64,000 nt of DNA from Desulforamulus reducens MI-1 (GTDB lineage: Bacteria > Bacillota > Desulfotomaculia > Desulfotomaculales > Desulfotomaculaceae), in the NCBI RefSeq assembly GCF_000016165.1, contig NC_009253.1, forward strand, positions 840,332 through 904,331. Direction: 5' to 3'. Both the position numbers and the translations under genes were made by a program. Of this stretch, positions 4,642-48,469 are shown in pieces. How positions within the stretch are numbered: the stretch's first letter is position 1; the number at the start of each line of letters is the position of its first letter. Below the pieces are notes generated by a model. It ran no database searches. It was not told the DNA's origin and saw only the letters and a list, made by a program, of their open reading frames with translations.

Positions 4642-5523
4642 ATGAAAAATACTTCGGGAAATATTTTAAGTGATTTTTTAGAGGATATTTACTCCGGTGG
4701 TACCGCCCGGAGTACGGTGGAAGCCTACCAGAAAGATGTAGTGTATTTTTCTAAATGGTACATCGATACAACCGGTAAAGAGCCACATCTGTGGGACATA
4801 ACCAGTATCGATCTTAGGGAGTATCAGGAATATATGCTAAGTGTTCAGGGTCTGATGCCAGCTACAATAAATCGTCGTATGGCTGCCATGGAGAAATATA
4901 TAAGGTGGGCGCATGGAAAAGGTTATATCAGCAGATTGTTAGCATTTCCCAAAATTATAAAGGAGCAAAAAACTCCGCCTAAAGCACTGGGGCGAGTGGA
5001 ACAGAATCGTCTTCTCAGAGAAGCTGAACGACATGGAAAGGCCAGGGATATTGCTTTGATCCGGCTTATGATGAGTTGTGGTCTACGGGTGGGTGAGGTG
5101 GTTTCCATTCGCCTGAGTGATCTGGATATTGGTGAACGTCACGGAACGGTCGCCGTACTGGGAAAGGGTAAAAAATACCGGAAAGTGCCGGTACCGCCGG
5201 AAGCGAGGAAGGCTATCAAAGAATGGCTGGCTGAGCGAACCCAAAGGTACCCAGATAACGACTGGCTTTTTCCAAATCGGAATGTTGGCAATATCACAGC
5301 CAGGAACGTGGAACAGGTGATTAAGAATATAGGGAAATTTGCTGGTCTTGATCTACACCCTCATGTTTTGCGCCACACGGCGGCAACAAATATGATTCGG
5401 ACTGGAGCAGATATTGTAACAGTGGCCCAAATTCTAGGACATGCTAATTTGAATACCACGGCCATATATACTAAGCCAGATAGCAAAACAATGTTAAAGG
5501 CGCTAGAAAAGGGGGAGGTTTAA
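4642..5523 (+). CDS. Tyrosine recombinase / phage-type integrase (XerC/D-like)
   Basis: A 293-residue enzyme with an N-terminal SAM-like core-binding domain (residues ~5-90) and a catalytic domain carrying the full set: Arg in CGLRVGE (~149), Lys in GKGKKYRKVP, HVLRHT (~241), the second His in LGHANLNTT and Tyr in AIYTK (~278). The length fits XerC/XerD or a small element integrase. ATG 4642 has AGGGGG upstream. It could integrate the element, resolve multimers of a plasmid, or invert DNA. No directionality factor or attachment site was seen next to it. Confidence 0.9.
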   Translation: MKNTSGNILSDFLEDIYSGGTARSTVEAYQKDVVYFSKWYIDTTGKEPHLWDITSIDLREYQEYMLSVQGLMPATINRRMAAMEKYIRWAHGKGYISRLLAFPKIIKEQKTPPKALGRVEQNRLLREAERHGKARDIALIRLMMSCGLRVGEVVSIRLSDLDIGERHGTVAVLGKGKKYRKVPVPPEARKAIKEWLAERTQRYPDNDWLFPNRNVGNITARNVEQVIKNIGKFAGLDLHPHVLRHTAATNMIRTGADIVTVAQILGHANLNTTAIYTKPDSKTMLKALEKGEV

Positions 5524-7490: not shown

Positions 7491-8717
7491 ATGAAAAGAA
7501 AACTCATTGGGGTTTGGGTGGTTGGGGTTATCTGCCTGCTGATATGGTTTCCCAAACAAACGTTAGCAATGGGTATGATTGATACTCAATCTGCAGTAGT
7601 TGGTAAGATATTAAACTATGATAAAAGCTGTGACACATATACCGTATATGGCCGTCGTAGCGTTATGACCAAAAACGGTTGGCAGGTGGTGGAAACTCAG
7701 AAATTCTATCATGTTATTCCAATGACTGATACTGCCAAACAAAAACTTCGCCAAGGTATTGGGTCAGGAGTCAAAGCATTCGGAGTAACCCAGACTGCTA
7801 CAGGGCTAAGAGAGCAGAACCTTTTAGCTGAAACTGTTTTACCGTATAATCCGGATGCCGATAGGGCAGCCGGGGTATCAGCTGCATTTGGTCCAGCTGA
7901 AGGTCCCTTTGATTGGATTGGTTTTGGCGTAGCAAACCGTCCCACATATCTATCTACTATTGAGCTTAAAAAAGAGGGACAAGGGGAAAAAATAACTGAG
8001 TTTGTAAATGCCTTAGCCACAATACGAGATGCCCTGTTCAATAGTGACGGGGAGGAATCTAAGACAGAACGATCAGCTAGTCAAAAATTACCCTATATTT
8101 TGCATACCATAGAAGGAGATGAAGAAAAGAACGATATTTACACCGATGTTTACAAATGGTGGAAAGCTAACATTGATACGAAATGGTACCTCGAAAAAGA
8201 TTTAGACACACTAAACCAACTGGGTTCGGCCAGTGGTGGTTTAGCTTTCTTTAAGGGGAAGGTTGGTAGTAACGGGGGATATATTGAAAGTGTGCCGGCT
8301 ATACGACCTAATATAGAAAAATATATGAATAAAGTTGGTGGCGGGGGAAGTAGTTATTTAGAGAAAACTCCTGGTATATTTTTCGGCAGCTTGACATACG
8401 ACCGGGAAACAAAGACTTTGTATGTTTCTGGACCCTTTTATAAACGCATAGACAGCCTGGTTAATGATATGGAAGCCGTTAAAAGTGGGTTGGGGAGCAC
8501 ACAGAGGCATGAAAGATGGGAAGTCAAAGGGGTAAGCCCTTCAAGAATGGATGTATTGTTAAAGAATAAATGCTGGGTCTCAGGTCGCAAAGTATTAAAC
8601 TATGAAAAAGGAAAGCTAATTGATTACTACTTCTCCGTGGATAAAACACTGACAGTAAATGAATTTAACTCTGCCCTTGATTTTATTAGGGATATTTCCC
8701 TTAAAGGTGGCATGTAA
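7491..8717 (+). CDS. Exported protein of the conjugation cluster, function unknown
   Basis: About 408 residues with a clear signal peptide (MKRKLIGVWVVGVICLLIWF...TLA). ATG 7491 is chosen over ATG 7476 because GGAGG (7481-7485) lies between them. The mature part is hydrophilic and extracytoplasmic, with a Gly-rich linker (VGGGGSS, ~282) and two Cys. No known fold recognised. It sits between the pilin-like genes and tcpC, so it is probably an envelope component of the secretion channel, at the cell wall or surface. Confidence 0.65.
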   Translation: MKRKLIGVWVVGVICLLIWFPKQTLAMGMIDTQSAVVGKILNYDKSCDTYTVYGRRSVMTKNGWQVVETQKFYHVIPMTDTAKQKLRQGIGSGVKAFGVTQTATGLREQNLLAETVLPYNPDADRAAGVSAAFGPAEGPFDWIGFGVANRPTYLSTIELKKEGQGEKITEFVNALATIRDALFNSDGEESKTERSASQKLPYILHTIEGDEEKNDIYTDVYKWWKANIDTKWYLEKDLDTLNQLGSASGGLAFFKGKVGSNGGYIESVPAIRPNIEKYMNKVGGGGSSYLEKTPGIFFGSLTYDRETKTLYVSGPFYKRIDSLVNDMEAVKSGLGSTQRHERWEVKGVSPSRMDVLLKNKCWVSGRKVLNYEKGKLIDYYFSVDKTLTVNEFNSALDFIRDISLKGGM

Positions 8718-8718
8718 T

Positions 8719-9675
8719 GTGTTCAACTTAAAAAAAAACAAGTCCTTGGAAATTCCACGCATAAGCAGAGAAACAAAGGCAATGCTATATCGTTGGCTGG
8801 CTTCCGGCATCCTATGGTTCTTTCTAATAGGGTGTTTTTTTATGGGTATTCAGTCTAGAATATCAACTACTGAAGCCATGGATTATATTCGGGGAAAGGC
8901 CCTTACCCCGGAAACTGCAGAAAAAGTTAGAATATCCTCTGAATTGGCTCGGGGTCTGGCGGTGGAGTGGGCTACCTTCGACGGAGAGGACAAAGAAGAC
9001 TACATGAAAAGGTTATCTGTATACCTGAATGAGGGGCACGTAGATCCACCGGCCGGTATGCAAAAATGTCTTTCAGCAAATGTTCTTTCATCTAAACAGG
9101 TACCCGGGGAAGAAGATCACTACCGTGTACAGGTTTTACTGCATGTTTCTAAGTTAGTGAAAATTCCTGAAAGCAAAGCCTATGGCATCTCGGAAGCCCG
9201 TCGAGTGGCCATTAGCGAACCGGATAAGAGTACCAATGAAAGAACCCTTACAACATGGCAAGAAGAGGTTTTGAATACAGAGGTTTCGGTGAAAGTTCTA
9301 AAAGATGAAGCCTTTGTGATTGGACTACCGGTTATCATCCCTATACAAAAGTCCGCAGGGGTGGCTACAGACAAATATATCGATTCTGAAGAAGCACCTA
9401 AGGATTTTACAATCTTTATTCAGCAGGCATTAACCATGTATTGCGAAGGGAATGACATGACCAATTATGTGGTCCCTGGTGCCAATGTTACCTACCTGGG
9501 AGGGTATAAAATAAAGAATGTTGCAGTAACTAATTTTTCTCAAAGAGAAAAAACGGCAAAAGCAGTGGTTTATGTAACGGTTTCCAGTGAGGGATTAGAT
9601 GAAATACAAATGTCAATGGTGATTGAAGCCGAGAAAAAAGACCGGTGGTTATTAAGCCGCATAGGGAGTTGGTAA
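8719..9675 (+). CDS. tcpC: TcpC-like conjugation protein (VirB8-type scaffold)
   Basis: A 319-residue bitopic protein: a short basic cytoplasmic tail, one transmembrane helix (WLASGILWFFLIGCFFMGI, residues ~27-46) and an extracytoplasmic domain of two similar halves (residues ~55-180 and ~215-318), as in TcpC of pCW3 and ConC of ICEBs1, which form the VirB8-like scaffold. GTG 8719 is preferred because AAGGTGG lies 8 bases upstream and the previous gene stops at 8717; the longer frame overlaps that gene. Followed immediately by TcpE and VirB4, the usual order. Confidence 0.8.
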   Translation: MFNLKKNKSLEIPRISRETKAMLYRWLASGILWFFLIGCFFMGIQSRISTTEAMDYIRGKALTPETAEKVRISSELARGLAVEWATFDGEDKEDYMKRLSVYLNEGHVDPPAGMQKCLSANVLSSKQVPGEEDHYRVQVLLHVSKLVKIPESKAYGISEARRVAISEPDKSTNERTLTTWQEEVLNTEVSVKVLKDEAFVIGLPVIIPIQKSAGVATDKYIDSEEAPKDFTIFIQQALTMYCEGNDMTNYVVPGANVTYLGGYKIKNVAVTNFSQREKTAKAVVYVTVSSEGLDEIQMSMVIEAEKKDRWLLSRIGSW

Positions 9676-9677
9676 AA

Positions 9678-10046
9678 ATGTTTTACCATAGTTACAAAAG
9701 CCTTTTCAAAATTAAGTTTAAAATCTACTCAATCGGAAAGTACCAGCTGGCACGTCCAATCCCCTTGGACACACTGGGTATACTGATTATCTTAGCCCTA
9801 CCCTCATATCTTATAGCCGGACCAATAGCTGGGGCATTTGGTACAAATAGGGTTGCAACTGCCATTCTAGTGGATTTTTTGTTAACTAGCTTTGCCCATA
9901 AATTTGATCCCCAGGGTCGACCGTTTTTAGAGTTTGTCTATGATATCTTTACATTCATTTTTAGACCGAAAAAAAGGGATTTTTACGAAACTGTACAGAC
10001 AAACCGAAAACATAGATTACGTTGGGAGGCATTAGACCTTGAGTAA
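9678..10046 (+). CDS. tcpE: TcpE-like conjugation membrane protein
   Basis: 122 residues. Begins with YKSLFKIKFKIYSIGKYQLA followed by RPIPLDTLGI, a typical TcpE opening, then two hydrophobic segments (LGILIILALPSYLIAG and VATAILVDFLLTSFA) and a C-terminal basic stretch. TcpE proteins are small partners of the VirB4 ATPase at the membrane. ATG 9678 lies two bases after the TcpC stop, with GGGAGTTGG as ribosome site; the longer GTG frame overlaps tcpC. A terminator follows. Confidence 0.8.
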   Translation: MFYHSYKSLFKIKFKIYSIGKYQLARPIPLDTLGILIILALPSYLIAGPIAGAFGTNRVATAILVDFLLTSFAHKFDPQGRPFLEFVYDIFTFIFRPKKRDFYETVQTNRKHRLRWEALDLE

Positions 10047-10074
10047 ACCGGTGTGAGTTAAATCCACCGGTTTT
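10045..10074 (+). terminator. Terminator between tcpE and virB4
   Basis: AAACCGGTG (10045-10053) pairs with CACCGGTTTT (10065-10074), followed by ATTACTTT. It may attenuate rather than fully separate the two halves of the conjugation operon, because the gene content continues. Confidence 0.65.
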
Positions 10075-10111
10075 ATTACTTTAAAAGGGTAGTTTCAGGA
10101 GGAAAACAGAC

Positions 10112-12529
10112 ATGCCACAATTTCCTATAGCTGCTTTCTATAAAAACATTATTTTCTCGAAAACTGGTAGGGCCTTTGCTATGTACCGTATACCGCCTCG
10201 TCTATGGCGTTTTTTCTCGGCTGAGAGAAAGATGGCTACAGTGGGGTTTCTAAGTGAAATTTTATCCGGTTTCAACGGTCGTGGACAGTTATTGCTCCTC
10301 TGGCAAGAATTAGCCGTAGACGAAGGGGGGTATCTAAAGGGATGCTTAGGAGAGAAACCATTAGATTTAAAGTGTAGGGATGAAGCGATACGACATGCCC
10401 GATCAGCTAGGGCTGCACAATCCCGTGGGGCACGCATTCGAAGGCGATTTATACTGTTTGAGTTATCGTTAAAACAACACATTTCTGATTTACAAGACTT
10501 CCTGATGGTGGCCCGGGACACGGCGCTAAAAACGCTCCTCTCCATCCGACCCATGCAAATTCCAGATTCAATTAAGCAGGTGGCTGATAATGCAGAACAA
10601 GAACGTTACCTAAATCTTCGTCAATATGGGTTAAGCAGAGCTACTTTTAATGATCTTGATTTTACCATTCGCAAAGTGGCAGACCGGATAGGTGTACTGC
10701 CACCGCCTCTTCCGGAAAGGGAAGGAGGGGTACTAACACCGGCTATGGTGGCTGCCTTTACTGATGGAGCTGTCTTAGATGAAAAATTGGATCACATTGT
10801 TGTAAGCAATGGAAACATTGATAAGCACCTCCAATCATTTGTTTTCTTTGTAGACACACCAGAACAATTACCACCCATTGGGAGAAATATCTATGATCCT
10901 GGAGAACTCAGTTTTCCCTTTGACGTTTCCATTCACTTTGAAGTGATCCCGGCCCACACCGCCGAGGGCAAAGTGAATAGCAAAAAGCGTATGTTAAAGG
11001 GTCAAATGGTAGAGGCATTGGGTGCCGATGAGTCTCCTGATTCTGATGAAGTAGATGGCATCCAGGATAGTAACAAGCTCAAAAAGAAACTCAAAAAGGG
11101 CCAACCATTGGGTCGTATTGCCATTTGCCTGGGGTTAGCGTCACGAGAATTAAAAGAATTAAGATCTAGGGGAGATAGGATATGCCAGCATTATAAACCC
11201 ATAAGCTTCAGAGCAGTTCGTCCAATCTCAAAGCAGTTAGAAGCCATCTACTCTTTTATTCCGGGATCGGAGCCTGCAGCACCGATCATTGAATGTGATC
11301 CTGGTTATATTGCTGCCACTGGCCCACACTTTGCGTCAGAACTAGGTGATCCACAGGGATTTTTCCTTGGTTGGTCCGGGCAAATCCCTGTATTGTGGAA
11401 ACCTGGTCGACCGGCCCTGGAATTGAATAAGACCAACGCTATTGTCATTACCGGTACTCTTGGTGGGGGTAAAACTTTTTTGGCCATCTACCTTGCCTAT
11501 CTGGTTCTCCTCTCGGGGGGTTACGTAATGGCCACAGATCCCAAAGGAGATTTCTTTCCCTTTAAAGATTTATTTGGTGATTTGGTAAGGATTATTGATC
11601 TTTCACCCCGCAGTGGCATCTCCTTTAGCCCCTTTGTTCTAGCCAAGGATGAAATAAAGGCAAAGAGCATTGCCTTAAATTACTTGACGCTATCCCTCAA
11701 TGCTGTGGGAAATGAGGCAAGGCGGCTGGCCATTTCCCAGGCTTTAGGGCTGCTGTACCAGAGACCGGTCCATGACAGGTACATGGGGATGTTTAGACAA
11801 GATCTGCACAGAGTATCCCAGAACGCCCCTCATAGCAAGGTGCGAGAAGAAGCAGAACAATGCTTATTTTTACTAACAACCATTGAAGAGATGGATGTAG
11901 GAAGGATTGTCTTTGGGAGATCATCAGGAGTGTTCTTTGATCAGGGGGAAAGAATGGTCATATTACACACAAAAGAAATTCCAAGACCCCAACCTAAAAC
12001 ACCGCCCAGCGAATACACCGAAGATGAGCGCCAGGGGGTTGCTCTTATTAACCTGCTGGATGCCATATCGCGGGAAGTGTCTTTTAGTCTTCCCAAGAAC
12101 CTCATAAAACTGAAGATTACGGATGAAGCCTGGGCCATTCTTACAGTATCAACAGGCGAAAGATTATTAAAAGAAGAAATACGGGTAGGTCGTTCTTTCA
12201 ATCTTATTCCTGTGCTAATTTCACAGAATATGACGGATATAAATAAATCCGACATCCTCAATAACGTAAGTCAAATATTCTGCTTTCGTGCTGAGTCGGC
12301 CAGTGAAGTAGATGCCAATCTACAGGCATTGGGTGCCGATCCGAAGTCTGTTAAGCCCGAGACCTTTGCTGAACTTAAATCCGGCAGGTGCTTGTATAAA
12401 GACGCCGAAGGAAGGGTTGGTTGGCTGGACGTAGAGATGAATCCTCCCTATCTTGCGGAGTTGTTTGACACCAAACCAAAGGAAGAAAAACAAAAGAGAA
12501 AGGAGGATCAGCTTTATGAAGATTCATAA
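10112..12529 (+). CDS. virB4: VirB4-type conjugation ATPase (TcpF/ConE-like)
   Basis: An 805-residue ATPase that powers the type IV secretion channel. The N-terminal ~400 residues form the VirB4-type domain; Walker A is GTLGGGKT (~448), the sequence KGDFF lies ~40 residues later, and Walker B is KITDEAW (~668). A charged insert rich in Lys/Asp at ~305-330 is unusual. The C-terminus is a short acidic/basic tail. ATG 10112 is preceded by AGGAGG. Its end overlaps the next gene by 14 bases, implying coupling to the VirB6-like protein. Confidence 0.9.
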   Translation: MPQFPIAAFYKNIIFSKTGRAFAMYRIPPRLWRFFSAERKMATVGFLSEILSGFNGRGQLLLLWQELAVDEGGYLKGCLGEKPLDLKCRDEAIRHARSARAAQSRGARIRRRFILFELSLKQHISDLQDFLMVARDTALKTLLSIRPMQIPDSIKQVADNAEQERYLNLRQYGLSRATFNDLDFTIRKVADRIGVLPPPLPEREGGVLTPAMVAAFTDGAVLDEKLDHIVVSNGNIDKHLQSFVFFVDTPEQLPPIGRNIYDPGELSFPFDVSIHFEVIPAHTAEGKVNSKKRMLKGQMVEALGADESPDSDEVDGIQDSNKLKKKLKKGQPLGRIAICLGLASRELKELRSRGDRICQHYKPISFRAVRPISKQLEAIYSFIPGSEPAAPIIECDPGYIAATGPHFASELGDPQGFFLGWSGQIPVLWKPGRPALELNKTNAIVITGTLGGGKTFLAIYLAYLVLLSGGYVMATDPKGDFFPFKDLFGDLVRIIDLSPRSGISFSPFVLAKDEIKAKSIALNYLTLSLNAVGNEARRLAISQALGLLYQRPVHDRYMGMFRQDLHRVSQNAPHSKVREEAEQCLFLLTTIEEMDVGRIVFGRSSGVFFDQGERMVILHTKEIPRPQPKTPPSEYTEDERQGVALINLLDAISREVSFSLPKNLIKLKITDEAWAILTVSTGERLLKEEIRVGRSFNLIPVLISQNMTDINKSDILNNVSQIFCFRAESASEVDANLQALGADPKSVKPETFAELKSGRCLYKDAEGRVGWLDVEMNPPYLAELFDTKPKEEKQKRKEDQLYEDS

Positions 12530-14105
12530 AAAAGCCCTATGTGCTGCACTGATTATCATAACCCTTTGCAATCCAGCTATCAGTTTAGCAGCCCAACGAT
12601 TTTACCCTGGAGATGAATGGCCTGCGGAAAAAAATCAAATCGGTGCCATCGATATTCACTCGGAAAAAATATTGGATGCAACGATGTATCCGGTCAGTTT
12701 TGCCATAACGGCCTTAGCTACCGTAAGCATTGCTGGGAAAATTGCTCAAAAACCAGTGACAGCCACGTTTCAAAAAATCTTTGTTGACATGTCAAAACGA
12801 TATGCGCAGAAATATGGTTACGTTCCCGTTGTAATCGGGGCTGGAACAGGGCAAACCGGCAGTACAGCTTTACTTTGGATGAACTGGCCGCCAAGCCGAT
12901 ATATTTTTGAAAATGCTGAGGCAAAGTTGATCGGAAACATTGGCAATGGGATAGCTAATACCATAATTTATATTTTTAACGGTATTGCCAATTTACTCTT
13001 CTCCTTAACCAAAACCATGGTACTAATGGCCAATAATATTATTTTTTTGGCCTTTGACACGCAGTGGGTACAAGCGACGGCGGATTGGATCTCTGATACC
13101 ACTCAGTTAGTTGGAGGTGAATTTTCCGGGAAAAGCAAAATGAAGTTTGCTTCCATCTTGTTTCTTTTATGCCTTTCCATCCTGGCCGGGGGTGTTGCTT
13201 TATATATCTATAATGGCCATATCGTCAAGGCCGGTAAAATATTCTTGGGAGCAGCTATAAGTATTGCTGCTCTTTATTTCTATCTTGGGTATAGCAACAC
13301 TATTATTAAATCTACAGCAAACTTTATGGATGCCTTTGCCGGTGCAGCACTTGAAATGGCCGGTGTAATCTTGCCGGAGACGGAACAAACTGTAACAGCG
13401 AACATGACTCCCCTTGAAAAAGGATTGGCCCAGGCTACCAATGCCGCATGGACGGCTATGGTTGCTTGCCCTTGGAGTTGGGGGCAGTTTGGTACCGCAG
13501 ACCCTGACAACCTGAAGCTAACAGCTTCATCCTCAGGGAAAAAGAGTGAATGGGATGTTTTAAAGGATGTAATACCGCCACAGCAAACGGTGCCGCCCAG
13601 TGGACAGGGCATCAGACTTTCCAGGAGTGATTTGGAAGCAAAAAAGGATCAACTCTATATTGATACCCTATTCCTAGGGAGTGATGATGCAATTAGAAGT
13701 AAATTGCTCAATGCAGTATCGGCCGATCAGGTGGGTTTTGCAGTATTCTCAGACAAAGTAGATCATGGTGCCCATGCAGTTACCGTTGCAGCTTGCCAAC
13801 CATCGGTCTCCTCTGTTTTCCGCCATATTGGTGTGGCTTTTATAACGATTTTTCCAGCTGGAGCTTATTTAACCATGGTTCTATTTTTAGCAATTCCCAT
13901 CATCATTTCACAGCTTGGCCTCATGGTAGCCCTGATATTCTTACCCCTCATTTTCATAGTAGGGGTTGCCGGAGAGACAGGACAAATCTATCTAAAAAAA
14001 GGAATGGGTCTGGTGTTGCAGTGCTTTTCAATCAAAATCGTATACGGACTTTACATGGGTGTTATCCTTTTTCTCGCAGCTCTGATTTCAACTTCATTAC
14101 TGTAA
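12516..14105 (+). CDS. VirB6/TcpH-like polytopic channel protein
   Basis: A 529-residue protein. It has a signal-like N-terminus (ALCAALIIITLCNPAISLA), hydrophobic segments near residues 140-180, 205-235 and 238-270, a hydrophilic loop (~285-430), then a cluster of helices in the last 110 residues (VAFITIFPAGAYLTMVLFLA and following). This layout fits the inner-membrane channel protein of Gram-positive systems. ATG 12516 follows AAAGGAGGA and overlaps the virB4 stop. The loop carries several Cys and probably lies outside the membrane. Assignment is by topology and position. Confidence 0.7.
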   Translation: MKIHKKALCAALIIITLCNPAISLAAQRFYPGDEWPAEKNQIGAIDIHSEKILDATMYPVSFAITALATVSIAGKIAQKPVTATFQKIFVDMSKRYAQKYGYVPVVIGAGTGQTGSTALLWMNWPPSRYIFENAEAKLIGNIGNGIANTIIYIFNGIANLLFSLTKTMVLMANNIIFLAFDTQWVQATADWISDTTQLVGGEFSGKSKMKFASILFLLCLSILAGGVALYIYNGHIVKAGKIFLGAAISIAALYFYLGYSNTIIKSTANFMDAFAGAALEMAGVILPETEQTVTANMTPLEKGLAQATNAAWTAMVACPWSWGQFGTADPDNLKLTASSSGKKSEWDVLKDVIPPQQTVPPSGQGIRLSRSDLEAKKDQLYIDTLFLGSDDAIRSKLLNAVSADQVGFAVFSDKVDHGAHAVTVAACQPSVSSVFRHIGVAFITIFPAGAYLTMVLFLAIPIIISQLGLMVALIFLPLIFIVGVAGETGQIYLKKGMGLVLQCFSIKIVYGLYMGVILFLAALISTSLL

Positions 14106-16116: not shown

Positions 16117-17175
16117 TTGAATGACTTAAACACTTCAGCTATTAAAAATTTCAAATGGTTTGCACTGGGGATTGGTTCTTCAGGGCTTCTGTTACTGATT
16201 TTATTAGTTTTCTTTTTAACTGGTTTTTTCATGACCTTCCTGGGTAACTTTCGGCTTCATTCGGGGTTTCTTTCTGGTTCACCCACGGATCTGGCGGCGA
16301 AGGAGATCGGTGAATATATGCCCATATTTTTACAAGCCCAGGATCGTTTTGGGGTCTCCTGGGCGGTGCTGGCGGCGATTGCCTCGACGGAATCGGGATT
16401 TGGTAAAAGTGAAAGATATATTCTCCAAAAGGGCATATCTGAGGCGGGGGCGGTGGGGTTTATGCAGTTTATGCCTTCGACCTGGAGTGGGTCTACAAAT
16501 CCCAGAGCCAATGATAATCCAGATAACCCCCAATGGGATGACAACCCCCAGACCATCAAGCAGTACGGAGGTTATGGAGTTGACGCAAATAATGACGGCA
16601 AAGCAGATCCCTTTGATCCGGAAGATGCAATTTTATCTGCAGCGAAATACCTAAAGGCAAATAATTTTGAAAGCGACCCCCGCCAGGCCTTATTTTGCTA
16701 TAACCATGCAACCTGGTACGTCAACATGATCTTAGAAAAAGCCGAAACCTATGCATCCATAACGCCCATGGGGGAGGGCAGTTGGCCACTACCACCGCAA
16801 TGGAACAGCATTACCTCCCCCTTTGGTAAAAGAACCCTAAATGGAGAAGAGGAATTTCACCCCGGCCTTGACATTGCCTGCCCTATTGGTACACCAGTTT
16901 TTGCAGTAATCGGCGGCGAAGTTATAACGGCAGATTGGGTTTCTGGGTATGGGTATTGTGTAATGATGAAGCACCCGGATGAGACCGTAACAGTCTACGG
17001 ACACTTATCGGATATAAAGGTGACGATGGGTGACAATGTTAAACAGGGTCAGGTCATAGCCCTTTCTGGAAACACAGGTAGATCTACAGGCCCTCACTTA
17101 CATTTTGAAGTCAGGAAAGCAAATAACCTATGTAACCCCATGGATTGGCTAAAAACCCCCAGTTCAAATTACTAA
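16117..17175 (+). CDS. Bifunctional cell-wall hydrolase: lytic transglycosylase plus M23 endopeptidase (VirB1/TcpG role)
   Basis: A 352-residue protein that opens the cell wall for the conjugation apparatus. It has one N-terminal transmembrane helix (residues ~17-48), a lysozyme-like/SLT domain (residues ~65-215) with the catalytic Glu in IASTESGFG (~91) and AVGFMQFMPSTW, then a LytM/M23 domain (residues ~225-348) with zinc ligands in HPGLDIA (~249) and GPHLHFEV (~325). Inside the first domain, DANNDGKADPFDPED looks like a calcium-binding loop. Start is TTG 16117 behind TGAGGTGA. Such two-domain hydrolases are typical of Gram-positive conjugation systems. Confidence 0.9.
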   Translation: MNDLNTSAIKNFKWFALGIGSSGLLLLILLVFFLTGFFMTFLGNFRLHSGFLSGSPTDLAAKEIGEYMPIFLQAQDRFGVSWAVLAAIASTESGFGKSERYILQKGISEAGAVGFMQFMPSTWSGSTNPRANDNPDNPQWDDNPQTIKQYGGYGVDANNDGKADPFDPEDAILSAAKYLKANNFESDPRQALFCYNHATWYVNMILEKAETYASITPMGEGSWPLPPQWNSITSPFGKRTLNGEEEFHPGLDIACPIGTPVFAVIGGEVITADWVSGYGYCVMMKHPDETVTVYGHLSDIKVTMGDNVKQGQVIALSGNTGRSTGPHLHFEVRKANNLCNPMDWLKTPSSNY

Positions 17176-17244
17176 GGGTTTATAATGCACGGCTCAGGTG
17201 CTAATGGCTGAGACAGTCAGAATTATTAAGGAGGTGTGCTTGCT

Positions 17245-19194
17245 ATTAGCTTAATTGTAATTACCTCACCGGCCACTGATGCTGGTAAGACTTTTTTAGC
17301 AACTGGTATTGCAGAGACCCTGGCGTATAGTCAATATAAAACCAGCTTTTTAGACTATGACATTGCTGTGGGGGATTCTCTGCGCATTTTTGGCCTAATG
17401 GATGACGCTCGAAGGCCTCATCCCACGGTTTCCTCATGGCAAGACTATCCTGACTTAGCCCAGTCATCACTTAAAACCAAAAATGGTGTTTTAGTATTTC
17501 CTAAACCGGAAATATCTTATGAAGTAATCACCCGAGAAAACGCAATGAAGTTGGTTCAGGCGGTAAAGGATTTTTCCGACGCTATTGTTGTTGATCTAGG
17601 AACAGACCACAGGATGCCCCATTACGAGGCTTTTATAAAAGCTGCGGATACAGCTTTTCTTGTGGTTGATTGTGATGAAAAAGCCTTGGTTCGTCTAAAA
17701 TCATTTATACATAACAATGCAATAAATCCCCAGAATGGGTGGATTTTAGCTATCAATTCCAGGGAAAGGAACGCAACCTATTCTACAAAAGAATTTGTAC
17801 GTATTGCTAAGGGTCTAAACAATGTAACCAAGGTAATTGAAATACCTTTTTTCAAGGAAATTGAGAAACAGTTCCCTAAGACGTTTCCTCCAAGTTCCTC
17901 AGTTGCTAAAGAAATATTTAATATTCTCCAAGGGGGCTCAGTGAAAAAATCAATCCTAACAGATGGAATAAAATATCTAAAAAATAATATGAGTTGCATA
18001 AGTAATTCAAATGAAGAAGAGGAGATCTCTAATCAATCATTTGAAGTTTTGATCAATGGTGAATTAATAAATTATTGCAGCTTGAAAGAAATCAATAACA
18101 TCGAAGATAGTATAGAAGCCATCTTTTTACCAACTGATTTTTCAAATATCTATGAAGTTATAAAAGAGCTGCGGAGAAAGACTGCTTTGCAAAAAGTCGC
18201 TATTGTAACCATTGGAAATTACGATTCCAAATTAATTGAATCAGGTGCTGATGAGTGTTTTCAAAAAATAAGCCCCGAAGTATTAAAAATAGTCAAGACT
18301 AAGGCCCAGAAATTAAGGGGGTTGTGGCATAAGGCAAATATAGACGAATTAACTGGTTGTTATCAGCGAAATTTTATGGACGAATGTTTTAACCACGCCA
18401 TTCAAAATCATAAGGAGAAAGGGGAACCTTTTTCAGTAAACATCTTTGACCTTAACGACTTTAAAAATATAAATGATACTCATGGTCACAACGCTGGGGA
18501 TTTGGTACTCAAAGCCTTTGGTCAACATCTCTGTACTACGTGTAGAGATATAGATATTCCTATCCGGAGTGGTGGGGATGAATTTATACTCATTCTTCCT
18601 AACGAAACTCTTGAAACAGCAAAAATAGTAGCAGAAAGAATAAGGTCAAGTTGGCAGGGAGTGTTCACATCTCCCAGTGGAAGATTCACGGCAACCTTCT
18701 CTGTTGGTATTTCTCAGGCAGGAGCAGACGGGGTTACCCAAGAGCAATTATTAAATGCGGCTGATAGAAGAATGTATCAGGACAAACAAAAATTCAAAAG
18801 CAATGTTATTTGTAAATATAAAAAAATAACCACGAATAGCCTTATGGTTACAACAAATCTCGTTGAGATAGACCAGCTCATTCAAAATAACAAAAAACCC
18901 CTGGTTGTTATCGATGCCGATAAAGGCCAACTAATAAACACGTTGGATATCAATCCAAATACAGCCTGGCAACATGATTGGCGCATAGGTTTGGCTGCTA
19001 CACCTGCCAAAATCGGCAAGAAAACAGAGTTGTATTCTATCCCTCCGGATGAAACCGATATCGAATGGGAAGAAAGGGATCTAAGGGTATTAAAAGAAAT
19101 TGTCCTGCAGGCTATTAAAGCCAAGAAAAAAGTTGTGATTGTAGCCGATAAACTCTATCCCGAAATTTCAGAAAGACTCTCCAGTATTTCATAG
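17245..19194 (+). CDS. MinD/ParA-type ATPase fused to pseudo-receiver and GGDEF diguanylate cyclase
   Basis: A ~650-residue fusion. Residues ~1-235 are a deviant P-loop ATPase (P-loop SPATDAGKT at ~10; FLDYDIAVGDSLRIFG). Residues ~265-355 look receiver-like (AIFLPTDFSNIYEVIKELRR) without a full phosphorylation set. Residues ~365-530 are a GGDEF domain with intact SGGDEF (~443) and an inhibitory I-site RDID just before it, so active synthesis of c-di-GMP with product inhibition is expected. A ~110-residue C-terminal domain is unrecognised. It opens the Tad operon. The perfect AAGGAGGTG (17228-17236) overlaps the only GTG in frame (17236), so ATT 17245 is the likely start. Confidence 0.8.
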   Translation: MSLIVITSPATDAGKTFLATGIAETLAYSQYKTSFLDYDIAVGDSLRIFGLMDDARRPHPTVSSWQDYPDLAQSSLKTKNGVLVFPKPEISYEVITRENAMKLVQAVKDFSDAIVVDLGTDHRMPHYEAFIKAADTAFLVVDCDEKALVRLKSFIHNNAINPQNGWILAINSRERNATYSTKEFVRIAKGLNNVTKVIEIPFFKEIEKQFPKTFPPSSSVAKEIFNILQGGSVKKSILTDGIKYLKNNMSCISNSNEEEEISNQSFEVLINGELINYCSLKEINNIEDSIEAIFLPTDFSNIYEVIKELRRKTALQKVAIVTIGNYDSKLIESGADECFQKISPEVLKIVKTKAQKLRGLWHKANIDELTGCYQRNFMDECFNHAIQNHKEKGEPFSVNIFDLNDFKNINDTHGHNAGDLVLKAFGQHLCTTCRDIDIPIRSGGDEFILILPNETLETAKIVAERIRSSWQGVFTSPSGRFTATFSVGISQAGADGVTQEQLLNAADRRMYQDKQKFKSNVICKYKKITTNSLMVTTNLVEIDQLIQNNKKPLVVIDADKGQLINTLDINPNTAWQHDWRIGLAATPAKIGKKTELYSIPPDETDIEWEERDLRVLKEIVLQAIKAKKKVVIVADKLYPEISERLSSIS

Positions 19195-19228
19195 CCGGGC
19201 ACCCTAGGTGTCCGGCTCCTTTATTTTT
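19193..19228 (+). terminator. Rho-independent terminator
   Basis: AGCCGGGCACC-CTA-GGTGTCCGGCT followed by CCTTTATTTTT. It separates the GGDEF fusion from the rest of the Tad operon, which suggests separate control or attenuation. Confidence 0.8.
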
Positions 19229-19255
19229 AAGACTACTTTTAGGTAGGTGATAAAA

Positions 19256-23036: not shown

Positions 23037-24347
23037 ATGCAAAAGGACCAGTTTAAGGGCTTGCAGGGTATATCTCCTTTGCTGCGTCAAAGGCAAGATC
23101 AACAGTTAGAAGAAATTATCTACTCCCGATTTGGTGAGTTAGTAATGGAGTGCAGAGCCCATGCCTTAACGATTTTTCAAAAGAACAAAGGTGAGAAGAT
23201 TGATGGCAATTACCTAGAATCAGAATTAAACAATCTTCTAAGCAAAAAGTACGGAAATATTGGGTTGTCGGAACGAGAAAATATTGCCCGTATGGTTAAA
23301 AACGAAATGCTGGGGTATGGCGTTCTGCAGGACCTAATAGATGATCCTCTGATCTCTGATATCTATGTTATACGGTACAACAGAGTACGGTATAAAAGGG
23401 ACGGCAAACTCTATGTTGCTAAGAATGTACGCTTCCGAGATGAGCAACACCTTCGTCAGTTCATTGACCTACTATGTTATATCGGTAAACGCAAGGTAGA
23501 TGAATCTAATCCTACAGTATCCCTTACTACACCGGAAGGACACCGGGTGGCAATAACCCTGGGAACCATAGCAGATGGCTTCTCAACCATGTCTATACGG
23601 AAATTTCTATTTACAGGAAATATTGATGGACTTGTCAAAAATGGCACCTTCTCCAAAAGGGCGGCAGAATTTATAAGACGTTGCGTTAAGGGAAGACGGA
23701 ATATTGTTATCGTTGGCCCCCAGAACACAGGCAAAACCACATTGATTGCTGTTCTTGGCCATGAGTTTGATGAAAACGAACTGCCGGTCCTGGTGGAAGA
23801 GGTCCGTGAGTGTACTATTGAACACCCGGATCTTCGTGTATTTGTTGCCAGACAAGCTAACATGGAGGGCAAAGGGGAATATGGCTTTAAACGCATTTTA
23901 AAGGATTCCTTACAATCAGGCGGCACACGGGTTCTGGTTGCTGAAGTACGGGACGGCAGTGTTTATTACATGCTCACAGCCATGGCCATGGGTCAGCAGG
24001 GTAGTATGGGCACCTTCCACGCCGATTCGCCACAGGATGCAATCCAAATTCGCTTAGTACTTATGCTAAGCCAAGCCCCGGAATGTGCCGGAATGACCAT
24101 CGAAAGCATGTACCGCATCATTGGGGCTGCAGTACACACCGTTATAATGCTTAACCTCGATGAAAACGGTAGAAGGATATGCTCTCACATATCCGAAGTT
24201 CTAAAATCCACTGGGGAACCCCCGGAGGTAATAGATATTTTTGAAAGGAGGAACGGGGAGCTAGTATACACAGGTAATTATCCCATTAGGGCCGCAGAAG
24301 AAATGAAACAGTATGGGGTGGATTTTAAAGGGGTGATTGAAAATTAA
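23037..24347 (+). CDS. cpaF: CpaF/TadA-type pilus secretion ATPase (first set)
   Basis: A 436-residue hexameric secretion ATPase that drives Tad/Flp pilus assembly. The N-terminal domain (~1-170) is followed by the RecA-like core: Walker A GPQNTGKTT (~227), Asp box LVEEVRECTIEHPD, Walker B TRVLVAEVRDGSVY, and the His box GTFHADSP. All family motifs are intact. The gene lies between the CpaE-like ATPase and a CpaB-like gene, and its end overlaps the latter by 11 bases. Confidence 0.92.
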   Translation: MQKDQFKGLQGISPLLRQRQDQQLEEIIYSRFGELVMECRAHALTIFQKNKGEKIDGNYLESELNNLLSKKYGNIGLSERENIARMVKNEMLGYGVLQDLIDDPLISDIYVIRYNRVRYKRDGKLYVAKNVRFRDEQHLRQFIDLLCYIGKRKVDESNPTVSLTTPEGHRVAITLGTIADGFSTMSIRKFLFTGNIDGLVKNGTFSKRAAEFIRRCVKGRRNIVIVGPQNTGKTTLIAVLGHEFDENELPVLVEEVRECTIEHPDLRVFVARQANMEGKGEYGFKRILKDSLQSGGTRVLVAEVRDGSVYYMLTAMAMGQQGSMGTFHADSPQDAIQIRLVLMLSQAPECAGMTIESMYRIIGAAVHTVIMLNLDENGRRICSHISEVLKSTGEPPEVIDIFERRNGELVYTGNYPIRAAEEMKQYGVDFKGVIEN

Positions 24348-24936
24348 AAAGCACAATATCTTTTATGTCTTATTTGTTGTTTTTGCAGTGGTTACAGCCA
24401 TAGGGGTATTCCACGGATATAACACCGTTACAAAGAAAGTACCCGTGGCAAAGGCCGGGGCAGATCTCGTTCAGGATGAAATGGCCTCCTCAAAAAATCT
24501 TGTAATTGGACAAACACCCATCGGAGCCTTGCAAAAAGATACCGTCAGGCATCCTGACGAAATTAAGGGGATGTACGCCAAGGGCTTCATACCGGCTGGA
24601 ACTGTTTTGAGAAAGTCAATGTTTATTTCCTTCAAAGATGCTGGGGTGGCCGCCAGACTAGCTAATTACCCTGGTAAAATTGCTGTATCCCTTGGGGCCG
24701 ATATTTACACCTCGGTGGGTGGGGAATTGAAGAGGGAATACAAAGTTAACATTAAAAGTGGCTATAAAGGATCAGAACGGGAGATTGCAAAGGAAGCCAT
24801 TGTTCTCTCCGAACCCACCGCCAAAAAAGAGGCCATTGTCCTTGCTATGACACCAGAGGAATCAACGTTATTAACATCTGCCAGGAGTAACAATGAAAAA
24901 TTGACCGTACAAATATTACCGGTTAAGGGGGACTAA
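24337..24936 (+). CDS. cpaB: CpaB/RcpC-like pilus assembly protein (SAF-type)
   Basis: A 199-residue protein with one N-terminal transmembrane helix (IFYVLFVVFAVVTAIGVF) followed by a SAF-like domain: VPVAKAGADLVQDEM, then GFIPAGTVLRKSMF. CpaB/RcpC proteins sit outside the membrane and help pilus assembly. Start TTG 24337 overlaps the CpaF gene and is preceded by AAAGGGGTGAT. A divergent second copy occurs at 42019. Confidence 0.7.
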   Translation: MKIKKHNIFYVLFVVFAVVTAIGVFHGYNTVTKKVPVAKAGADLVQDEMASSKNLVIGQTPIGALQKDTVRHPDEIKGMYAKGFIPAGTVLRKSMFISFKDAGVAARLANYPGKIAVSLGADIYTSVGGELKREYKVNIKSGYKGSEREIAKEAIVLSEPTAKKEAIVLAMTPEESTLLTSARSNNEKLTVQILPVKGD

Positions 24937-24939
24937 AAA

Positions 24940-25809
24940 ATGTGGGTTTCCCTTTTTGCATTTCTTGCCGTTGTTTGTCTTGGCATCGGAATCATTTACC
25001 AGAAAGACTATTCCAAATTGAAGGAACTGCTTTCTGGCAAATCTTCCGTCAAGGTAGATGATAAGTCAAGTATTCTTGATGAATTATGGGGAACACCCCC
25101 TGACACCCGAAAAGCCACTCTGAACCAGGCTATGGTTGGTCTGGTTTTAGGTTTTATGGCAGGGGAGTTTATAAGCAGCACAGTTGCTTTACTGCTGGCC
25201 CCTTCCGGATTTGTACTGGGTCCACGTATTTATGAATTAGCAGTCAGAGGTTATAAAAGAAAAAAATTCCGTACTTTGTTTACCCGGGCTGTATCGGACA
25301 TGGCTGTGGTAGCCCGCAACAGTACGATTCTGGAAGGTATTGCCCATGTTGCGGAAAATGCCAAACCGCCAGTATCCGATATCTTTAGTTACATTTCTGA
25401 AAGCATTCAAAAAGGGGAAAAAGACTACTTAGCCATTATCAAAGCTGCAGAAGTATATAATGTTCCTGAATTGCTCCCTCTGGCCGACTCCGTGAGAATT
25501 ATCGCTGACCTTGGGGGTGGGAAAAGGGCGCCGGAAATATTAACTTCTGCCGCAGAGATGGTCAAACACCAAAACAGGTTTATTGATAAGGTGAACATTG
25601 CTGTATCGGAAATGCTATGGGATGCGGCCATCTCAATGCTGATCTTGGTTGCTTGTTTTGCTTGGCTGGCTCTCCCGGAAGATTCAGTATACCGTCTTTC
25701 ATTATCTAAACATCCCATGCTGCTGGCCGCGGGATTTGGCAGTTTGATTATTTGCTGGGTTTTTATTTTTGCTGAGCTCAAGAAGTTTAAGTCAAAATGT
25801 GGTCTTTAA
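24940..25809 (+). CDS. tadB: TadB-like membrane platform protein (first set)
   Basis: A 289-residue protein with an N-terminal helix, a second near residue 65-95, a cytoplasmic region (residues ~100-230: FTRAVSDMAVVARNSTILEG..., the T2SS F-type helical domain) and two C-terminal helices (AAISMLILVACFAWLAL and LLAAGFGSLIICWVFIF). TadB and TadC together form the inner-membrane platform of the Tad machine. ATG 24940 follows AAGGGGGA, three bases after the CpaB stop. Confidence 0.75.
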   Translation: MWVSLFAFLAVVCLGIGIIYQKDYSKLKELLSGKSSVKVDDKSSILDELWGTPPDTRKATLNQAMVGLVLGFMAGEFISSTVALLLAPSGFVLGPRIYELAVRGYKRKKFRTLFTRAVSDMAVVARNSTILEGIAHVAENAKPPVSDIFSYISESIQKGEKDYLAIIKAAEVYNVPELLPLADSVRIIADLGGGKRAPEILTSAAEMVKHQNRFIDKVNIAVSEMLWDAAISMLILVACFAWLALPEDSVYRLSLSKHPMLLAAGFGSLIICWVFIFAELKKFKSKCGL

Positions 25810-25839
25810 AGGAGGTTTTACGGAAGGGGATAGTATCTT

Positions 25840-26127
25840 GTGGATTCCTTTGAAAGCTGGACTACTGAGTACCTACTCCAAGATGCCATTGCAGGGGGTG
25901 TCTTTGTTTTTATCTTTCTATTAGCAGCCAGGTTTGCTGTTCGAGCAATCATTGGCAGTTGGTTTGGCCGAAGAAATGGAGCCCTTGTATCAACAATCGT
26001 AGAGGTCTTTGCTACCTTTTACTTTGTCATACAGGCATCCTACAACCCAGGGGTCTATTTAGGGGCAGTTTTGGCCTTCAGTGCTGGTATTATGAGACAT
26101 TTAATCGGGAACATCAGGGGTTTATAA
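25840..26127 (+). CDS. Small membrane protein within the Tad operon
   Basis: A 95-residue protein with two to three hydrophobic segments (AIAGGVFVFIFLLAARFAV, VSTIVEVFATFYFVIQ, VYLGAVLAFSAGIM). It starts at GTG 25840 with GGAAGGGG upstream. It lies between the TadB- and TadC-like genes, a position not standard in known tad loci; it may be an accessory platform subunit. No family recognised. Confidence 0.6.
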   Translation: MDSFESWTTEYLLQDAIAGGVFVFIFLLAARFAVRAIIGSWFGRRNGALVSTIVEVFATFYFVIQASYNPGVYLGAVLAFSAGIMRHLIGNIRGL

Positions 26128-26149
26128 CTTTTGTTAAGGGGTGATAACC

Positions 26150-27013
26150 ATTGGCCATATTGTAACAGTATCTTTATTGTGCAGTTTGCTATCTTTAGCC
26201 GCAGGATTCTATTACCGAAAACAATATTCAGTCTTAAAAGAGAGATTATCGGGGCAAAAAAACAAGCTGACTTTTCTGCAGCTTTTTTCTAAAAAACTAC
26301 CAGAATACCTAAAGGCATTGGGCATTGTCTTAGACTTCAAAAAGATTAATAACTGGCTTGTATTAGCAGGACGACCCTTTAAGCTAAACGCCGAAGAATT
26401 TGTGGGAGCTTACATCGTTTTGGTCGCAGGTACCGGCGTAGTTGCCTACACCATGATTAACCTGGGGTTGGTTAGTAAGTTGATAGGCTTTTTGTTTTTT
26501 GCGGTGCCATCGGTGGTGCCGTATTTTCATATTGAATCTGAAGCCCAAAAAGCCAGGGATAAGATTAACACAGAGTTGATTAACCTGATCTATTCCATGG
26601 ATCTTGGCGTATCAAACGGCCTTGATGAAAAGTTGCTCATTCAGTGGGCAGCCGAGGGAAAAGGCCTATTGGCATCCATGCTTAGGGAATCATTAAAAGA
26701 AGTTGATCTTGGTGGAGAAGAATATCTTATCTTTTACAGGTTGGCCGAAGACTACAATGTCCCCGATGCAGAAGAGGTTGGCATGTTAATAAAACATGCA
26801 GAAAAGAACGGGGTAGATATTTCTCAAAGCCTGTATGACTTAGCCAGGGATTTTCGGTATCGGCGCGACAGTGACCTAGACAAGAATATAGGCAAAGTAA
26901 AGCTGACCATTGGGGTCTATGTGGTTTTGGCCTATATGGTAATGACCTTTGCCCTCATTGCCGGTCCGATCATGGTAGAATACCTTCCCTATTTATCGAA
27001 AGGTACCGGTTAA
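26150..27013 (+). CDS. tadC: TadC-like membrane platform protein (first set)
   Basis: About 287 residues: an N-terminal helix (VTVSLLCSLLSLAAGFYY), a helix pair near residues 85-125, a cytoplasmic helical domain (ELINLIYSMDLGVSNGLDEK, then LAEDYNVPDAEEVGML) and a C-terminal helix (VYVVLAYMVMTFALIAGPI), the type II secretion F-like layout. Partner of TadB. AAGGGGTGAT (26136-26145) overlaps the in-frame GTG 26141, so ATT 26150 is the probable start. Confidence 0.75.
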   Translation: MGHIVTVSLLCSLLSLAAGFYYRKQYSVLKERLSGQKNKLTFLQLFSKKLPEYLKALGIVLDFKKINNWLVLAGRPFKLNAEEFVGAYIVLVAGTGVVAYTMINLGLVSKLIGFLFFAVPSVVPYFHIESEAQKARDKINTELINLIYSMDLGVSNGLDEKLLIQWAAEGKGLLASMLRESLKEVDLGGEEYLIFYRLAEDYNVPDAEEVGMLIKHAEKNGVDISQSLYDLARDFRYRRDSDLDKNIGKVKLTIGVYVVLAYMVMTFALIAGPIMVEYLPYLSKGTG

Positions 27014-28733: not shown

Positions 28734-29234
28734 TTGGTAAGCATGATTGTTATATTTTCATTGGCTTTGACAGCCTATATAGACATTAAAAAACGGGAGA
28801 TCCCACATATAAGTGTCATATTGCTGCTATGCCTGGGTATCTACCTGCACTGGCAAGAACCATTATTCTTCCTAATTGGTATCTTTAGTATGTTTATTCC
28901 TCTGCTTCTCTTTAGTCTTGTCACAGGAAGTCTAGGTGAGGGAGATATAAAGCTTTTCGCTGTGATGGGAGGCATCATGGGGATAATGGATTGCCTGCTT
29001 TTCTTTGGCATAGTTAACCTTACTTCGATTGCTGGCGAACTCCTTTACAGAGCATATAAAGGAGAGCTGCGAAAGATTATGGTTCAACAAAAAGAACTGG
29101 CTTTATCCTTTATTAACGGTACATCAAAAAGTTTTATTGAACAGGTAAAACCAGAGGATACCGTACCCCTGGGAGCCTACTTTCTTCCGGGATACCTGAT
29201 TTACTACATGGGGGTGATTTATGGTGTGTTTTAA
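28734..29234 (+). CDS. Prepilin peptidase, A24 family (first Tad set)
   Basis: A 166-residue polytopic membrane protease that processes pilin precursors. The two catalytic Asp lie in AYIDIKKREIPH (~12) and GEGDIKLFAVMGG (GxGD motif, ~70), both intact. Short form without the N-methylase domain, as in TadV/CpaA. Start TTG 28734 follows GGAGAGTGG. The following TadE-like gene overlaps by 14 bases. Confidence 0.88.
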   Translation: MVSMIVIFSLALTAYIDIKKREIPHISVILLLCLGIYLHWQEPLFFLIGIFSMFIPLLLFSLVTGSLGEGDIKLFAVMGGIMGIMDCLLFFGIVNLTSIAGELLYRAYKGELRKIMVQQKELALSFINGTSKSFIEQVKPEDTVPLGAYFLPGYLIYYMGVIYGVF

Positions 29235-29685
29235 AAGGTTCATGGTTAAAAAACGGGGAGAAGGATTAATTTTTATCTCCATTATCTTTGTAATTCTCAT
29301 TGTATTAATCCTGAACGGTGCTCAATTGGGCATGTTTGCCTATTCCAAGGATATTACAAATACGGCTTCCCGGGAGGGGGCCAGGGCCTATGCCGTTGAG
29401 CACAGTGAAGATTTAGCAAGGAATCAAATAAAAGAGATTGTCTCAAAAACCCTATATGTCAATGAAGAAACCTTCCCTGGAGAGAATGTTGAACTTTCGG
29501 AGATAACCCATGAAGATCAACCCTTCTGCAAAGCAAGGGTAAGCTACAACGTTCCCGTTATTGCCCCGGATATATTAAAAATACTTAACCCCAAGGACCC
29601 CGGTTGGGGACGGTTTAAGAAAGTTACATCATCGGCTTATTTTCTAAAGGAGTATCAACCGGAGGAAGAGTTGGATGAAGAATAA
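29221..29685 (+). CDS. tadE: TadE-like pseudopilin
   Basis: A 154-residue protein: short basic head (KRFMVKKRGEG), one hydrophobic helix (LIFISIIFVILIVLILNGAQLG) and the typical TadE continuation DITNTASREGARAYAVEHSE. TadE/TadF proteins are minor pilins processed by the A24 peptidase. It overlaps the peptidase gene upstream and the TadG-like gene downstream. Confidence 0.8.
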   Translation: MVCFKRFMVKKRGEGLIFISIIFVILIVLILNGAQLGMFAYSKDITNTASREGARAYAVEHSEDLARNQIKEIVSKTLYVNEETFPGENVELSEITHEDQPFCKARVSYNVPVIAPDILKILNPKDPGWGRFKKVTSSAYFLKEYQPEEELDEE

Positions 29686-30226
29686 GGTTCTAAAGGGTAA
29701 GAAGGGTTTTACCTTTATATTGTTTGTACCAGTATTTTTAATCATTATGCTATTCATGGCCAGGGGTATCGACTGGGGTATGGCTACCGTGGCCAGAGGA
29801 AAATTGCAAACCATTTCCGATGCCGGTTCTCTGGCCGGGGCCAGTGCTGTTGAACCGATCACTAAAGTGGAATTGGTGAATAATGATGATGGTTCTTTGG
29901 AACTCCGTGAGAAAGTGACTGGCATCAAAATTAACAGCGAAGAAGCCCAAAGGAGAGCCCGTTTAGCCAGAGAGTTAAACGGCGGTACCCAGGACTATTG
30001 GCAAGGTGTGGGTGGTCACTGGGAAGGGACAGAGGAACGTATAGAAGGGGATGACATCTACTGCGTTAAGTCTACCGCCAGGGTGAAGTTACCCTTTCTA
30101 TCACGAATATATGAAAAAGTCTCTGGCCATAAGGATTTAACAATTACCATGCCAGGGGATGCTAGATCAGTTTTGATAAAACAGAAAATGAATATTGATG
30201 GGGAAGGGGATGGTATTTCTGAATAG
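29675..30226 (+). CDS. TadG-like pseudopilin
   Basis: A 183-residue protein with a basic head (KNKVLKGKKGF), one hydrophobic helix (TFILFVPVFLIIMLFMARGI) and TVARGKLQTISDAGSLAGAS, the characteristic TadG-type DAAALAGA-like segment. Much shorter than classical TadG, lacking the von Willebrand region. ATG 29675 overlaps the TadE stop. Confidence 0.75.
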   Translation: MKNKVLKGKKGFTFILFVPVFLIIMLFMARGIDWGMATVARGKLQTISDAGSLAGASAVEPITKVELVNNDDGSLELREKVTGIKINSEEAQRRARLARELNGGTQDYWQGVGGHWEGTEERIEGDDIYCVKSTARVKLPFLSRIYEKVSGHKDLTITMPGDARSVLIKQKMNIDGEGDGISE

Positions 30227-33702: not shown

Positions 33703-33703
33703 G

Positions 33704-41987: not shown

Positions 41988-42018
41988 AAGACTTTTAAAG
42001 CAACTGGAGGTGAATTTT

Positions 42019-42822: not shown

Positions 42823-42837
42823 AGAGGTGAATATTAA

Positions 42838-45281: not shown

Positions 45282-45283
45282 AC

Positions 45284-48438: not shown

Positions 48439-48469
48439 TATAAGGCTATTTTGAAAGGTGGGTTTGTAT

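Follow-up and report, generated by a model that had tools for sequence, protein, structure and literature searches.

We have found that a single reading frame of the bacterium Desulforamulus reducens MI-1 joins a ParA/MinD-fold domain, a receiver-like domain, a GGDEF domain whose diguanylate cyclase site is intact as judged from its residues, and a second, shortened MinD-like domain, and that this gene lies between the conjugation genes and the Tad pilus genes of a mobile element. The reading that we favour, to which we would give about an even chance, is that the fusion protein is a diguanylate cyclase that docks onto the base of a Gram-positive conjugative element's own Tad pilus and controls that pilus. 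Positions below refer to the window, by which we mean the whole stretch of 64,000 nucleotides that was analysed; genomes carry handles (G007 and so on) where they have to be told apart.

Table 1. Features of the window around the fusion gene and elsewhere on the element
Feature	Position	Strand	Basis
XerC/phage-type tyrosine recombinase	4642..5523	+	domain/family match
TcpC, TcpE, VirB4/TcpF-type ATPase, CD3337/EF1877-family membrane protein	8659..14105	+	domain/family matches
SLT + M23 peptidoglycan hydrolase of the conjugation cluster	16117..17175	+	Pfam; same neighbour in relatives
Fusion protein (ATPase-like, receiver-like, GGDEF, shortened MinD-like), 652 aa	17236..19194	+	ORF, Pfam, structural matches
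N-terminal ParA/MinD-fold domain, aa 1-235	17236..17940	+	Pfam CbiA, AlphaFold + Foldseek, profile match
P-loop SPATDAGKT, aa 11-19	17266..17292	+	sequence, alignment
Atypical receiver-like domain, aa ~268-360	18037..18315	+	phmmer, structural alignments to REC-GGDEF enzymes
GGDEF (diguanylate cyclase) domain, aa 367-520	18334..18795	+	Pfam E=3e-36; PleD E=6e-28
I-site RDID, aa 437-440	18544..18555	+	sequence, PleD alignment
Active-site motif SGGDEF, aa 445-450	18568..18585	+	sequence, PleD alignment
C-terminal shortened MinD-like domain (WQHDWR), aa 535-652	18838..19191	+	hhalign
Terminator-like hairpin directly after fusion gene	19193..19217	+	11 pairs; consensus match only
MinD/CpaE-like protein, amphipathic C-terminal tail	19247-20560	+	domain/family matches, helical moment
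BcsQ-like MinD-like protein	20671-21594	+	Pfam
MinD/CpaE-like protein, N-terminal part + ATPase, amphipathic tail, directly before tadA	21612-23033	+	domain/family matches, helical moment
Tad core: TadA ATPase (23037-24347), SAF/CpaB-like, two TadB/TadC-like (T2SSF) membrane proteins	23037..27013	+	Pfam; NCBIfam TadA family
A24 prepilin peptidase, TadE-like, Tad/TadG-like proteins	28734..30226	+	domain matches
Stand-alone EAL phosphodiesterase	53657..54415	+	Pfam E=1.5e-42
T4SS coupling protein (VirD4/TraG type)	58805..60892	+	domain match; 79% identical in G007

Domains of the fusion protein

The fusion ORF has no internal stops or frameshifts and lies inside one contig of 3,608,104 bases. 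Its start is ambiguous, being either the GTG at 17236, which stands only 1 nt past a GGAGG (17230-17234), or a nearby downstream codon; the codon at 17245 is ATT. A preliminary description of this DNA had proposed that one polypeptide joins an ATPase, a receiver-like domain and a GGDEF domain, and Pfam, phmmer and structural alignments agree with it; both of the domains that it had suggested searching for, GGDEF and CbiA, were returned by Pfam. The ORF is continuous between ATPase and GGDEF, and a frameshift or assembly artefact is ruled out by the single contig, the absence of stops and the recurrence of the architecture in 10 other genomes.

The CbiA/MinD/ParA match begins at residue 7 (Pfam E=8e-6, just above the cut-off), and the N-terminal domain also has profile matches to MinD and to the TadZ structure 3fkq. 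Its AlphaFold model (pLDDT 80) is matched by Foldseek to MinD, FleN, FlhG and TadZ 3fkq, a test that is not fully independent since the alignment behind the model held MinD paralogues, which favour that fold. The preliminary description calls this domain a deviant P-loop ATPase: the fold is that of ParA/MinD and the P-loop keeps the Lys of GKT, but the signature Lys of the deviant Walker motif is absent. The receiver-like part is recognized because phmmer and structural alignments extend from the GGDEF domain back into the receiver of REC-GGDEF enzymes, beginning at residue 248 (6d9m) and residue 276 (6zxm), and no conserved phospho-acceptor Asp was seen in it. A TadZ-like layout does not hold, as TadZ has its receiver ahead of the ATPase and the window fusion has it behind. 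The fourth domain (aa ~535-652), a shortened second MinD-like copy with a WxHDWR motif, matched the complete MinD-like domains of the family at 98.5% when aligned together with three relatives by hhalign; those complete domains match MinD-type ATPases at 96.6% in profile comparison.

The AlphaFold model of the full-length protein, built from 3 sequences, is poor (pLDDT 57) except in the GGDEF domain, and a structural look-up with it covered mainly aa 364-521. Helical moments calculated over the linkers of the family gave no consistent amphipathic helix above background, the linker after the ATPase in the window fusion having a moment of 0.60, below the 90th percentile of the background (0.72).

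The GGDEF enzyme

The GGDEF domain scores 125 bits against a curated Pfam cut-off of 23.8, and its best match among solved structures is PleD. The PleD positions D327, K332, N335, D344, R359, D362, GG[D/E]EF (E370, E371) and K442 are kept in all 11 members of the family described below; R446 is Arg or Lys across members, Lys being found in the window fusion and two relatives. An inhibitory RxxD stands five residues before GG[D/E]EF in every member. The window fusion, by its aligned residues, has an intact diguanylate cyclase site, as had been read earlier from its SGGDEF and RDID motifs, and the GGDEF domains of all members appear catalytically intact. Such full retention of the site, at 30-40% identity between members across the phylum, speaks for both catalysis and feedback inhibition being under selection.

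The universal I-site also fits a different role, that of a BcsE-like scaffold responsive to c-di-GMP, in which binding at the I-site would alter the grip of the ATPase and receiver domains on the pilus motor and synthesis would be secondary. BcsE has a degenerate REC-GGDEF and binds a partner of the MinD type (PMC7439463), and the neighbouring protein at 20671-21594 is BcsQ-like by Pfam. However, pure sensors usually lose the active site, as BcsE has done, whereas all 11 members of this family retain it, and the Pfam matches listed for the fusion at E<=1 include none to the BcsE/GIL family. We consider this role distinctly improbable.

A family of pilus-linked GGDEF fusions

GGDEF is combined with the ATPase, its relic or both in eleven proteins from three classes of one phylum. 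When the C-terminal domain was used as query, 8 of the 113 genomes of the class were matched, all with GGDEF fused. A wider search across the phylum (398 genomes) brought in G188, G256 and G208, likewise with GGDEF; G191 and G011, found in the wider search, have a receiver and a MinD-like domain without GGDEF and are left out of the member count. Carriers include Desulfocucumis palustris and Desulfoscipio geothermicus. Weak profile matches from the phylum search (E>1e-5) that were opened proved to be ordinary MinD/FlhG-like proteins. Viral contigs were searched and held no relatives, which rejects a phage origin, and no plasmid record covered 80% of the query, the top plasmid matches being to GGDEF only.

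Domain order varies. The window fusion reads MinD-REC-GGDEF-short MinD; G007 and G024 lack the receiver (MinD-GGDEF-short MinD), and G208 ends in a complete copy (MinD-REC-GGDEF-MinD). A receiver-like domain replaces the N-terminal ATPase in G038 (REC-REC-GGDEF-short MinD) and in G058, G073, G188 and G256 (REC-REC-GGDEF-MinD). G019 reads REC-MinD-REC-GGDEF, with the ATPase after a receiver as in TadZ, and G037, whose start is cut by a contig end, reads MinD-MinD-REC-GGDEF. In a tree of these 11 GGDEF domains and 27 others from the window's genus and family, in which the outgroups are nearest hits only, the members form one group with support of 96/91, and none of 500 shuffles scored as low. 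This single clade, together with the architecture in 10 other genomes, excludes chance, and the simplest reading is that the pilus-linked GGDEF arose once, as the tree would have it, and that its domains were shuffled afterwards.

The P-loop Lys is absent from the other four related N-terminal domains, those of G007 (PAVGTST), G024 (GGAGTT), and G208 and G037 (PGAGAT), and also from complete MinD-like copies of relatives (SPWMSEIGTT, SPWLEGAGVTT and similar). Because this Lys is mostly missing, the fused ATPase domains look like docking pseudo-ATPases. That the fused ATPase is an active localiser, as was first supposed, is doubtful on these motifs, which lack either the deviant signature Lys (window fusion) or the P-loop Lys itself.

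The junction of conjugation and Tad genes

In most loci the fusion gene sits directly after the SLT/M23 hydrolase gene and directly before Tad genes. The order hydrolase, fusion, CpaE or CpaB, and TadA is common to G007, G024, G038, G019 (with intervening ORFs), G256 and G208; the hydrolase side of the junction is present in G188, and the Tad side in G058 and G073. The early claim that Tad genes and a mobile element surround the gene is borne out by Tad genes downstream and by conjugation genes and a recombinase upstream. Its placement at the head of a Tad operon is correct in position only: 52 bases with a terminator-like hairpin separate the fusion gene from the next Tad gene, so that co-transcription is not assured, while the fusion ORFs of G007, G024 and G038 overlap the following ORF or come close to touching it.

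Downstream of the fusion gene are encoded three more MinD-like proteins, two with amphipathic tails whose moments (0.80-0.81) exceed the background 90th percentile of 0.72. The protein at 21612-23033 is a better CpaE/TadZ candidate than the fusion, because it has an N-terminal part plus an ATPase, an amphipathic tail and a place directly before tadA. The fusion protein does join a CpaE-like domain to a predicted c-di-GMP synthase, as the preliminary description held, but it is one of four MinD-like proteins and not the best CpaE candidate among them.

The Tad set comprises TadA, TadB/TadC, RcpC/CpaB-like, TadE and prepilin peptidase proteins, some with Pfam scores below curated cut-offs. As for a Flp-type major pilin, the small ORF at 25840-26127 has no Pfam match. 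The best conserved small ORF near the pilin genes, at 30195-30635, encodes a small protein that is 52% identical in the G007 element. The same element of the window has a second Tad-like set at 42010-46108, made up of an RcpC/CpaB-like protein, a TadA-type ATPase, a T2SSF-like protein and one more membrane protein; a similar set comes after the fusion-linked Tad genes in G019 (L068:4927-8780).

The element, its EAL gene and its surroundings

Hallmarks of integrative conjugative elements are present in the window, namely a T4SS ATPase, a coupling protein and a recombinase. No relaxase was found among the subset of window ORFs that was scanned, and no tRNA lies within the window or close to it. 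When the flanks were compared with sister genomes, the best identity was 36%, and this weak result is left out of the argument. Only two EAL matches occur in the genome; one of them is the gene on the element, whose product has a counterpart in the sister element of G007, at 46% identity. Directly after it, at 54390-54905, lies a gene whose product has a match to the LNS2 (phosphatidylinositol-transfer/lipin-like) domain and is 62% identical in the G007 element. G208 carries near-identical split EAL genes (G208:C1:1094305-1095062 and G208:C3:61906-62663), one about 30 kb downstream of its fusion gene. The element also encodes a Fic/DOC-family protein (33695-34474), and elsewhere in the window are a PHD-like antitoxin (15369-15785) and a predicted protein with a VanW domain and a weak VKOR-like N-terminal match (48458-49825). 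To the right of the window, a tyrosine recombinase is in two pieces (L107, 14278-14907 and 18205-18540) with a transposase-like ORF between them, and two transposase-like ORFs at L107:1814 and 8670 share the same N-terminal sequence.

The divided integrase and the insertion sequences near it raise the question of whether the fusion gene is neutral or decaying within an old, broken mobile element, a view that would also accommodate the hairpin after the gene and the loss of the P-loop Lys in most relatives. We think this very unlikely, given a full-length ORF, catalytic positions that are all kept at 30-40% identity across the phylum, and intact T4SS and Tad genes.

Readers of c-di-GMP were found outside the window. 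The window has no c-di-GMP riboswitch, nor have the 60 kb that surround the G007 gene, and no PilZ match falls in the window; the rest of the host genome holds about 14 other GGDEF matches, six c-di-GMP-I riboswitches and four PilZ matches. The global pool of c-di-GMP therefore has readers, which bears on an alternative in which the cyclase is active but not local: the element, with its EAL enzyme, would shift the overall c-di-GMP of the host, perhaps making it sessile and rich in cell contacts and thereby favouring transfer, and the ATPase part would only sense nucleotide or the assembly of the T4SS or pilus. The intact catalytic site and the scarcity of EAL matches, one of two being on the element, are in keeping with this alternative. 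It leaves unexplained the fusion to a pilus-type ATPase and the retention of the gene directly before Tad genes in distant genomes, and we regard it as rather unlikely, if the most serious competitor to a docked cyclase.

Discussion

A docked cyclase is the role that we judge most likely because of three precedents. A model fitted to tomograms arranges CpaE dimers in a ring about the Tad motor, and TadZ consists of an atypical receiver plus an ATPase (PMC13170226); the Tad pili of Caulobacter increase with moderate c-di-GMP and retract with high c-di-GMP (PMC6581867); and BcsE, whose REC-GGDEF is degenerate, has the MinD-like BcsQ as a binding partner (PMC7439463). On this model, the MinD-like domain, usually without its P-loop Lys, and the shortened copy would offer surfaces for docking onto the CpaE/MinD-like ATPases encoded next to the fusion, of which two have MinD-like amphipathic tails. 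Docking would gather GGDEF domains at the pilus motor, where they would make c-di-GMP until the I-site stops synthesis, and the EAL enzyme of the element would remove it. The c-di-GMP might then tune extension and retraction of the Tad pilus, and hence the cell contact needed for conjugation. We infer the docking, the local action and whatever part the protein plays in mating, and the mode of docking must vary, since the receiver is missing in two members and the N-terminal ATPase is replaced in five. Against a docked cyclase stand the hairpin after the gene, the lack of PilZ matches and c-di-GMP riboswitches in the window, and the lack of a consistent amphipathic helix in the linkers.

These observations suggest that the element itself brings along the signalling for the pilus that it builds. 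It is possible, and we put this forward tentatively, that a family of Gram-positive conjugative elements uses Tad as a mating pilus and confines to it a c-di-GMP circuit of its own, with the cyclase held on pseudo-CpaE domains at the pilus base and reset by the EAL enzyme. To our knowledge, conjugative pili are not generally known in such bacteria, and the consistent junction of T4SS and Tad genes hints that conjugation may here be assisted by a pilus and be equipped with c-di-GMP enzymes of its own. It has long been asked whether diguanylate cyclases act locally, and local action is usually inferred from co-localisation. With a cyclase and a pilus-base-type domain in one polypeptide, which has stayed together phylum-wide with its catalytic residues intact, local and global signalling could be told apart by cutting one linker.

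The separate parts are already known: GGDEF proteins, CpaE/TadZ, Tcp-type conjugation and, in this group of bacteria, Tad operons (PMC3244431). Four tad operons have been reported in Desulfotomaculum (Desulforamulus) reducens, in a paper that is silent on GGDEF, diguanylate cyclase and CpaE and in which conjugation appears just as one of the general functions of pili (PMC3244431). In the open-access papers that were searched, we found no report of the fusion architecture, of Tad pili on Gram-positive conjugative elements or of the combination of T4SS, Tad and c-di-GMP.

The fusion resembles CpaE/TadZ (E. rectale TadZ, PDB 3fkq; C. crescentus CpaE) in its ParA/MinD fold, atypical receiver, atypical Walker A motif and Tad locus, but it has in addition a GGDEF domain that is intact and another MinD-like domain in shortened form; the window fusion places its receiver after the ATPase and is accompanied by three other CpaE/MinD-like proteins in the cluster, and MinD and FleN rank above TadZ 3fkq among its sequence and fold matches. 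With PleD/DgcR-type REC-GGDEF cyclases (1w25, 6zxm) it shares the GGDEF fold, the catalytic and I-site residues and a receiver before the GGDEF domain, whereas its receiver is without the conserved acceptor Asp and ATPase-like domains stand at both ends. In the BcsE/BcsQ pair of enterobacterial cellulose secretion, likewise, a receiver-GGDEF tandem serves an export machine together with an ATPase of the MinD type (PMC7439463), but the GGDEF of BcsE is degenerate and BcsQ is a separate protein, while here the GGDEF domain is intact and the system is a Tad pilus beside a T4SS. Lastly, the window matches Gram-positive conjugation of the Tcp/VirB4 type in TcpC, TcpE, VirB4/TcpF, an EF1877-family protein, a peptidoglycan hydrolase and a coupling protein, and it differs in that its conjugation cluster runs directly into a Tad pilus cluster and a c-di-GMP enzyme.
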